Positions 28,821 through 30,829 of a stretch of DNA of 64,000 nucleotides are shown one piece after another. A model generated the notes under the pieces. That model ran no database searches, was not told the DNA's origin, and was given only the letters and a program-made list of their open reading frames with translations. Where the stretch lies: NCBI GenBank assembly GCA_027886905.1, contig JAPCJO010000004.1, forward strand, positions 2,923-66,922. The letters run 5' to 3'. Source of the stretch: Nitrososphaerota archaeon. GTDB taxonomy: Archaea > Thermoproteota > Nitrososphaeria > Nitrososphaerales > Gagatemarchaeaceae. How positions within the stretch are numbered: the stretch's first letter is position 1; each line of letters opens with the position of its first letter. Both the position numbers and the translations under genes were made by a program.

Positions 28821-28828
28821 ATAAATAT
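28821..28828 (+). promoter_or_regulatory. Putative TATA box (ATAAATAT)
   Basis: Predicted TSS about 28850, so the start should lie downstream of ATG 28831. Confidence 0.5.
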
Positions 28829-28863
28829 TCATGTTCGGTAATTTCGTAATATGCCAGTCTTCA

Positions 28864-29892
28864 TTGCGGCTTTTTCGAGAATCGAGGTCCACGGAGTTGC
28901 CAGCTAAGTCCACAATCGGGGGAACTGTCGGAGGGAGTACGCCCGTAAGCGACAACCCGTTTGCTGCCCAGGACACCGAAATCGAAGACGCGACCGTCTC
29001 TGGGATATCGCCATACCTCTCGTCATCCCCACTGGGGACAGGCACAGATACGGTCGGGGTAGGAGGGATGAGCAATGCTCTACCAGGGGTGCTCGGAAGT
29101 AGCGGGAGTGGGTATGGGGTCGAGGGTGTCAGCGAGCACGGGGACGGGCTCTACGGTTCGAGCGTCTACGGCAACGGGGTCCACGGCGCCGGCAAGAATG
29201 CTGGACTCTTCGACGGCGAAGTCACGGTCAACGGCAACGAAGCGATCAGCGGTTCGCTGACGGCGGGGTCCGCCAAGTTCTCTGGCGTGACCACGACATC
29301 TCTGGCCGCGTCCGGCGCTCTCACTGCTGGGAGCCTCGAGACGTCCGGCTCTCTTAGCGCCGGAAGCCTCAAGGCATCCGGTGCCCTCACTGCTGGGAGC
29401 CTCGAGACGTCCGGCGCTCTCACCGCTGGAAGCGTCACGACCTCGGGCAAGGTGACCGCGTACGATGTTGTGCTCACGGGCGGGGGCGACATTGCGGAAG
29501 AGTTCGCCCAGCTCGGGGAGGAAAGTGAGCCAGGCACGGTCATGGTGATCGGCGACGAAGGGGGTCTCTCCAAGTGTACCTTGGAGTACGACAGGAGGGT
29601 AGCTGGAGTGGTCTCCAGTGCGGCGAATCTCAAGCCTGCGATAGTCCTCAAAGGGGCGGAGCGGGCTCTACGAAAGGGCGTGTCTTTGGCGATGGTTGGG
29701 AGGGTCTACTGCAAGGCAGATGCGAGTTACGGTCCGATAAGAGTCGGAGACCTCTTGACCACCTCCCCGACCGGAGGTCACGCGATGGCGGCGATGGACC
29801 CAGCGCGGGCCTTCGGCTCTGTGCTGGGAAAGGCCCTAGCCAACCTTGAACGGGGGACCGGCCTCATCCCCATCCTGATAGCTCTCCAGTGA
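28864..29892 (+). CDS. Repeat-containing protein with C-terminal conserved domain (beta-structured, S74/tail-fibre-like flavour)
   Basis: YGVEGVSEHGDGLYGSSVYGNGVHGAGKNAGLFDGEVTVNGN, then 11-aa repeats, then GGGDIAEEF...EPGTVMVIGDEGGL...YDRRVAGVVS...VGRVYCKADASYGPIRVGDLLTTSPTGGHAMAA...GLIPILIALQ. Start uncertain (ATG 28831, TTG 28864 or TTG 28897). Confidence 0.8.
   Translation: MRLFRESRSTELPAKSTIGGTVGGSTPVSDNPFAAQDTEIEDATVSGISPYLSSSPLGTGTDTVGVGGMSNALPGVLGSSGSGYGVEGVSEHGDGLYGSSVYGNGVHGAGKNAGLFDGEVTVNGNEAISGSLTAGSAKFSGVTTTSLAASGALTAGSLETSGSLSAGSLKASGALTAGSLETSGALTAGSVTTSGKVTAYDVVLTGGGDIAEEFAQLGEESEPGTVMVIGDEGGLSKCTLEYDRRVAGVVSSAANLKPAIVLKGAERALRKGVSLAMVGRVYCKADASYGPIRVGDLLTTSPTGGHAMAAMDPARAFGSVLGKALANLERGTGLIPILIALQ
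29308..29472 (+). repeat. 33-nt in-frame tandem repeats (about 5 units) encoding ASGALTAGSLE-like 11-mers
   Basis: Units ASGALTAGSLE / TSGSLSAGSLK / ASGALTAGSLE / TSGALTAGSVT / TSGKVTAYDVV. Confidence 0.9.
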
Positions 29893-29897
29893 GTTGA

Positions 29898-29920
29898 CCA
29901 GATAACTTGAGGTCATCTGG
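29898..29920 (+). repeat. Imperfect hairpin CCAGATAAC-TTGAG-GTCATCTGG between island genes
   Basis: 8 of 9 bp stem, 5-nt loop, 5 nt after the stop codon at 29892. Confidence 0.6.
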
Positions 29921-29932
29921 GAGGGCCTGGAC

Positions 29933-30829
29933 ATGAGCGCAGTTCCCCTTCGAGTCCACATCCGCCTCAACGACATCACAACCCAGCTGTTTTCAACAGG
30001 AACGGCTTATGTCACTCAAGCAAAGACCATCTATCTCTGGTCGGTCTTCTTCAAGGTCGACGGCGCTACCGTGCAGGTGAACAGTTCCTTGAAACTGCAA
30101 GGGACCGGCACCGTGGTCGGCACGCCGGGCAATCAAGGGGACCTTCCTGGAGGAGTCTCCGCCTCCTACTACGTAGCGGAGACGACGCCCATCCCTTCCG
30201 CGTTGGGCGACTACGCGACTACGCTCGTCCCCATTCCCGTCTCAAACTCAGGCTTTACCGTGGGTGGAATCATCGGGTACGTGCTCATCCTCATCTACCA
30301 GAACGACACGCCGGCAAATGCTGTAGCGGCGGCCCACCAAGCGCTCAACAGCGGGATCCAGCAAGGACTCGATAGCACAATTCCGACCCTCGGCGCGACC
30401 AACCAAACAATCACCCCGGCGGACATCTCGAGCGTCGAGAATCAGGTCATCGCGGCCGTCACGACCGCGATAAAGAACAACCTGAGCATATGGGAAAAGC
30501 TCGGCACGGTCTTGAACGACGAGTTCCAGGACTCGCTCATTGGTAATGCCCTCCAGTACTTCACCTACGGCCAGCTTACGGCGTCGCCCCCCCAACTCGT
30601 TGAGATACCCCTGAACACAGTAATCTCAGTCAATCCCTCCGGCGCCGGGTACGATGGTTCGCCTCTCTACGTGTTCACCTTCAATGGGACGGTGGTCGCT
30701 GACCAGTCCCCTTTCAGCTTGAGACAGGTCATGACTTTCCTCGGACACACCCCGCCGGCAGGGGTGCGGGCTGTGATGGGCTCCTCGTTCACGTCGTCTC
30801 TGCTTGCCTGGATCGACAAGGTCCTGTGA
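29933..30829 (+). CDS. Conserved hypothetical protein, no recognised domain
   Basis: 298 aa; GGGAGGG about 8 nt upstream of ATG; VHIRLNDITTQLFSTGTAYVTQAKTIYLWSVFFKVDGATVQVNSS...AVAAAHQALNSGIQQGLDSTIPTLG. Confidence 0.75.
   Translation: MSAVPLRVHIRLNDITTQLFSTGTAYVTQAKTIYLWSVFFKVDGATVQVNSSLKLQGTGTVVGTPGNQGDLPGGVSASYYVAETTPIPSALGDYATTLVPIPVSNSGFTVGGIIGYVLILIYQNDTPANAVAAAHQALNSGIQQGLDSTIPTLGATNQTITPADISSVENQVIAAVTTAIKNNLSIWEKLGTVLNDEFQDSLIGNALQYFTYGQLTASPPQLVEIPLNTVISVNPSGAGYDGSPLYVFTFNGTVVADQSPFSLRQVMTFLGHTPPAGVRAVMGSSFTSSLLAWIDKVL

Follow-up and report, generated by a model that had tools for sequence, protein, structure and literature searches.

A phage-tailspike-like protein and its exchangeable tagged partner in a Nitrososphaerota archaeon: a candidate scaffold-and-cargo module

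A window of 64,000 nucleotides from a Nitrososphaerota archaeon (GenBank assembly GCA_027886905.1, contig JAPCJO010000004.1, positions 2,923 to 66,922) contains two adjacent genes on the same strand, here termed A, which encodes a phage-tailspike-like fibre protein (28831..29892, +), and B, which encodes a variable partner from a family of unknown fold (29933..30829, +). From sequence, structural models and analogy with phage proteins, we consider it reasonably probable that A is a trimeric scaffold onto which a variable cargo, in this genome B, is docked by a terminal tag.

The C-terminal module of protein A

Protein A, 353 aa when counted from the ATG, consists of a repetitive stalk followed by a 134-residue module, the position that the corresponding module occupies in Peptidase_G2 chaperones. 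The stalk includes a YG-x-GV repeat stretch (approximately 29098..29205, +, read from the translation) and five tandem repeats of 33 nt or 11 residues (29308..29472, +), which are predicted to be beta-structured and which were detected in the DNA as four 66-nt copies at a spacing of 33, equivalent to five consecutive 33-nt units. Both open reading frames (ORFs), both repeat regions and the C-terminal module had been described in a first-pass annotation of this DNA, and all were confirmed in the sequence. Stalks of similar style occur in A relatives at L005, L006, L008 and L009 (L plus a number labels a compared locus). A 417-aa repeat protein of bactofilin-like appearance, which adjoins an ABC-2-type permease at L002:1252-2505 (G000 contig C80), matches the A repeats weakly.

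The C-terminal module (residues 220-353; 29488..29889, +) was characterized by sequence, fold and a conserved motif. The Peptidase_G2 family model PF11962 matched 25 of 61 A-type C-terminal modules at E<=1, with a best value of 1.8e-6, the window's own A being unmatched. An AlphaFold model of residues 190-353, built with 61 input sequences, reached a predicted local distance difference test score (pLDDT) of 84 and a predicted template modelling score (pTM) of 0.80. Fold searches with this model retrieved phage tail proteins (E 2e-13, template modelling score [TM] up to 0.80), the head-fibre base gp8.5 of phi29 (4.6e-4) and capsid decoration proteins, and comparison with phi29 gp12 gave a TMq of 0.62 for 3SUC and a TM of 0.53 for 3GQH. 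By these sequence and model comparisons, the module is a phage tailspike/decoration beta-tulip of the Peptidase_G2 type found in phi29 gp12. The annotation had been right to call A bacterial-type and tail-fibre-like, as relatives and fold matches show, but its suggestion of an S74-like module was rejected because the S74 family model had no match in 42 A-family members.

A single scan of 84,980 species genomes yielded 392 tblastn-confirmed stretches encoding the A module, which indicates that A is more than a chance ORF; 80 were kept. The motif of A reads G219-D220-I-A-E223-E-F225, and D220, A222, E223 and F225 are invariant in the family. D-x-A-E is kept in 80/80 bacterial and archaeal relatives, with Ala preceding the motif in 70. 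In PDB alignments the counterpart in phi29 gp12 is S691-D692-F-A-E695-Y-F, the D-x-A-E of A having been aligned with D692/E695 via Dpo31. The deposited C-terminal fragment of gp12 begins at D692, the "pre-mature" structure has Q at 695, and we take S691|D692 to be the autocleavage point. The complete conservation of the gp12 motif suggests, by analogy, that A probably forms trimers and undergoes self-cleavage ahead of D220. The predicted cleavage point would lie between G219 (29485-29487, +) and D220 (29488-29490, +), with E223 encoded at 29497-29499 (+).

A is like the pre-neck appendage gp12 of phi29 and other PF11962 tailspikes, such as Dpo31, in carrying a beta-tulip C-terminal to a beta-structured stalk and D-x-A-E-x-(F/Y) at the cleavage point. 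Unlike these tailspikes, it is found in cell genomes without tail genes, has no recognized receptor-binding or lyase domain, and is encoded directly ahead of a gene for a tagged partner that varies. Its module also shares the fold of the decoration and head-fibre beta-tulips lambda gpD, TW1 gp56 and phi29 gp8.5. Proteins of this kind form trimers at three-fold sites in capsids (PMC7602432), whereas the A module follows a stalk, retains the cleavage motif and involves no capsid. The concept of a C-terminal, self-cleaving trimeric chaperone is common to A and the Peptidase_S74 or intramolecular chaperone auto-processing proteins (T5 fibre, endosialidases and MyRF), but where a Ser-Lys dyad has been described for MyRF/endoNF (PMC8326128), A has D-x-A-E.

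Partner genes behind A and their terminal tag

Of 76 assessable loci, 62 have an ORF of more than 100 aa that lies on the strand of A and begins at most 200 nt 3' of it; in the window the gap between A and B is 40 nt. The partners are mostly unrelated to one another and include M6/M10/M12-type zinc metalloproteases, phospholipase C/acid phosphatase, calcineurin-like phosphoesterase, Kelch-type copper oxidase, GDSL lipase and fibronectin type III proteins, as well as many without a family. Three archaeal carriers of A within one genus have three unrelated partners. A homologue of B lies directly behind A in an acidobacterium (Acidobacteriota, L068; 39% identity, pairwise E 6e-55), and B is one of A's exchangeable partners. 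The annotation's proposal of a two-gene module is thus borne out by partner adjacency, while its notion of two families as a constant pair holds only in part: the B family does recur beside A in the acidobacterium, but the usual companion of A is any of many unrelated tagged proteins.

As the annotation had stated, B (298 aa) has no nameable domain and no signal peptide. Pfam and PHROGs searches with the window's A and B alone returned nothing significant, and a hydrophobic segment is absent from the N terminus of both proteins. A PDB sequence search with B gave only weak matches, probably due to chance, and no B relatives were found in the viral contigs. Signal-peptide-like N termini were likewise absent from the A proteins (0/80) and rare among partners (2/66), which suggests that assembly is probably cytoplasmic.

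The absence of signal peptides and the enzyme classes of the partners also resemble the effectors of extracellular contractile injection systems (eCIS). A and its partners could therefore be accessories of an eCIS or a tailocin, with A as the tail fibre and the tagged partners as loaded effectors. The tail-fibre fold of A accords with this, and eCIS operons can include S74-chaperoned fibres (PMC8213781). However, no more than 11 of 27 genomes with A showed the contractile sheath PF17482, on contigs other than those of A in the cases compared. It was not found in the remaining 16/27, which include the window's own genome (77% complete; some of the assemblies are incomplete), indicating that a contractile tail is not needed. 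No annotated tail genes adjoin A in the plasmid loci, and we judge an injection-system role to be quite unlikely.

The otherwise unrelated partners have in common a short unit, [ST]-(LVIMFY)-[RK]-x-x-(hydrophobic), up to three copies of which, approximately 10 to 20 residues apart, make up an SLR-type tag at the N or C terminus. At least two units within 45 aa were present in 27/62 first partners, compared with 2/304 and 8/277 among the remaining ORFs of these loci. When strict spaced units were counted, at least two were present in 39/69 partner loci (N end, 23; C end, 14) versus 9/499 control ORFs, and at least three in 14/69 versus 0/499. A leave-one-out position-specific scoring matrix (PSSM) detected three units in 31/66 partners versus 8/499 controls, and never four; Fisher tests gave 9e-33, for at least two spaced units, and 2e-25. 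Among 14 partners outside the PSSM training, 9 had at least two units, compared with 64/499 controls (p 2e-5), and only 2 had three. When the tag model was run over the 27 A-bearing genomes, a single strong match was obtained in each of 12, all of them known A partners, and no strong match was found elsewhere in these genomes.

In B, the tag model places an SLR-type tag at the C terminus (FSLRQVM / AGVRAVM / SSLLAWI; 30713..30826, +). In a six-frame search of the window, a model built without B gave B as its best match (E 0.0058); the score of the first unit of B, FSLRQVM, was 12.5, a value reached by 2/499 controls.

An alternative is that the tag is an independent element of the partners, serving for example in membrane, wall or nucleic-acid binding or as a folding aid, and merely co-occurs with A. 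Binding of the tag to A is something that we infer, and the units show a regular arrangement of basic and hydrophobic residues; both points leave room for such a role. Against it, such tags were seen only beside A, on proteins that are unrelated and at the N or the C terminus, and the two B homologues that lack a neighbouring A (L195 and L196; two cases only) have different ends and no tag. We regard an independent role as unlikely, though worth keeping in mind.

Several further features were observed among the partner loci. A small family of approximately 155-205 aa (no Pfam match; pairwise E values as low as 4e-50) is found repeatedly between A and a second gene that is tagged and in most cases metalloprotease-like, at L008:6503-6997, L026:4464-5072, L074:3230-3703 and L087:8332-8949, and is also found beside A in L224. 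This small protein is a candidate inhibitor or chaperone; an Emfourin-like inhibitor identity for the small gene beside the metalloproteases had no Pfam support. No homologues without A of the metalloprotease partner at L067 were found in 297 genomes. Partners at L197:1844-3739 (archaeon), L019:8463-9731 (Verrucomicrobiota) and L073:8442-9695 (Nitrospira) combine an N-terminal hydrophobic-helix region with a tag-like C-terminal end and are possibly membrane active. In Methylomonas (L059:8474-9529), two tandem A-family genes precede a tagged third gene.

Distribution, history and genomic setting

The species-genome scan placed the A family in many bacterial phyla and in Methanosarcina, Methanophagales and Nitrososphaerales. 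Matches to the A module at 40-51% identity lie on plasmids of Streptomyces, Rhodococcus, Paraburkholderia, Acaryochloris, Runella, Hymenobacter and others, and in Actinomycetota A is rare (4/297 genomes, one of which is the seed). Among 46 genomes of the archaeon's own family, A is confined to 3 of 8 species of its own genus (43-61% identity), and no other copy of B was found. The annotation had held that its reading would fail if homologues were restricted to this archaeal clade or if the two genes were never adjacent elsewhere; A homologues extend well beyond the clade and a B-family gene adjoins A in the acidobacterium, so that neither is the case.

Divergent A-type modules (35-40%) are also common in viral contigs (L101-L176), and many of these modules have the cleavage motif A|D-L-A-E-x-(Y/F). 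Given such modules and the phage-related fold of A, the pair might be a decaying prophage or tail remnant without cellular function. However, tblastn of A and B against 50,697 phage records gave no match, the ORFs are intact, the catalytic motif is invariant in all 80 relatives, and the two-gene layout recurs in many phyla. We consider a decaying remnant very improbable.

The patchy distribution of A fits lateral spread and makes lateral entry into this archaeon likely, and to that extent the annotation's proposal of lateral acquisition stands. Recent entry into this genome did not find the same support. In the A tree, phyla are intermixed and poorly resolved, and a single origin within the archaeal genus was neither shown nor rejected (approximately unbiased [AU] test, p 0.47). 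Synteny breaks off in the segment 30830-30956, to the left of purC. In an empty-site comparison at the purC junction, five relatives were found to keep purC, purM and purB, but none of them has any of the genes on the left side, so that there is no clean insertion edge. The base composition of the pair is not distinct from that of the surrounding DNA. The source genome comprises 85 contigs.

Upstream of the pair, a TATA-like element, ATAAATATT (28821..28829, +), was read from the sequence; no match to a sigma-70-type promoter was found in a search with the bacterial consensus. Because the TATA-like element abuts the ATG at 28831, this codon is unlikely to be the start of A. A better candidate is the in-frame TTG at 28897, which has GAGGT ahead of it at 28884-28888 and would give a protein of 331 aa. 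The ATG of B has GGAGG 8 nt 5' of it.

A putative scaffold with exchangeable cargo

We propose that A is a cellular relative of phage tailspike and head-fibre proteins, in which a G2-type beta-tulip module comes after a repeat stalk. This module would trimerise, assist folding of the stalk and, by analogy with phi29 gp12, cut itself off before D220. B would be the cargo of this scaffold, docked onto A by its C-terminal SLR-type tag. The docking site would most simply be the conserved C-terminal module, because this is the only part of A that is kept where stalks and cargoes differ. Since the partners share only the tag, and the tag has been seen only beside A, binding between tag and module is the simplest reading. 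Given that modules of the gp12 type form trimers and that a tag holds no more than three units, an attractive but speculative arrangement would place one tag unit on each subunit of the A trimer. In other genomes a like scaffold would bear other tagged proteins, among them metalloproteases and phosphoesterases, so that the whole would constitute a module of scaffold plus exchangeable cargo made without secretion signals.

Several observations weigh against this proposal. The trimer, its cleavage, the docking, the role of B as cargo and the purpose of the assembly are deduced from monomer models and sequence. The window's A has no Pfam match, and no usable fold prediction was obtained for B (pLDDT 49.5; fold-search probabilities near 0.1, discarded). 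Approximately one-fifth of the partners have no recognizable tag, and the same is true of the partners at plasmid loci L010 and L012 and at L030 from the same genus. In B itself, a single unit passes the PSSM threshold, and the other two, AGVRAVM and SSLLAWI, are degenerate. The control ORFs were defined mechanically, and some are spurious in GC-rich loci. Finally, the strong matches in the genome search were mostly seeds of the model, and the search therefore speaks for exclusivity of the tag, not for its sensitivity.

Scaffolds of one family that serve many unrelated cargoes through a short common recognition element are familiar from encapsulin cargo peptides, dockerin-cohesin pairs and eCIS or Rhs effectors. 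The A-partner module differs from these in its scaffold fold, its tag, its two-gene units and its lack of shell or tail genes. No description of the module or the tag was found in curated family libraries and the open-access literature (preprints and subscription papers lie mostly outside that scope), and both are apparently undescribed. More tentatively, and with somewhat less confidence than doubt, we suggest a general bacterial and archaeal cargo-docking system. It would be built on a phage-spike module that has been domesticated, processes itself and forms trimers. A single cargo protein would cap the three-fold end of this module through a three-unit tag, one unit per subunit, such that any protein gaining the tag would become cargo.

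If the proposal is correct, hundreds of "hypothetical proteins" in many phyla would be versions of a single type of machine, in which a scaffold that is related to phage proteins and cuts itself takes up plug-in cargo, and the cargo would be recognizable by its tag from sequence alone. The cleavage motif would offer a direct biochemical handle, and the short two-gene scaffold with its transferable tag would be useful for protein display. One would then also have to ask how such scaffolds make use of metalloproteases and phosphoesterases that lack secretion signals.
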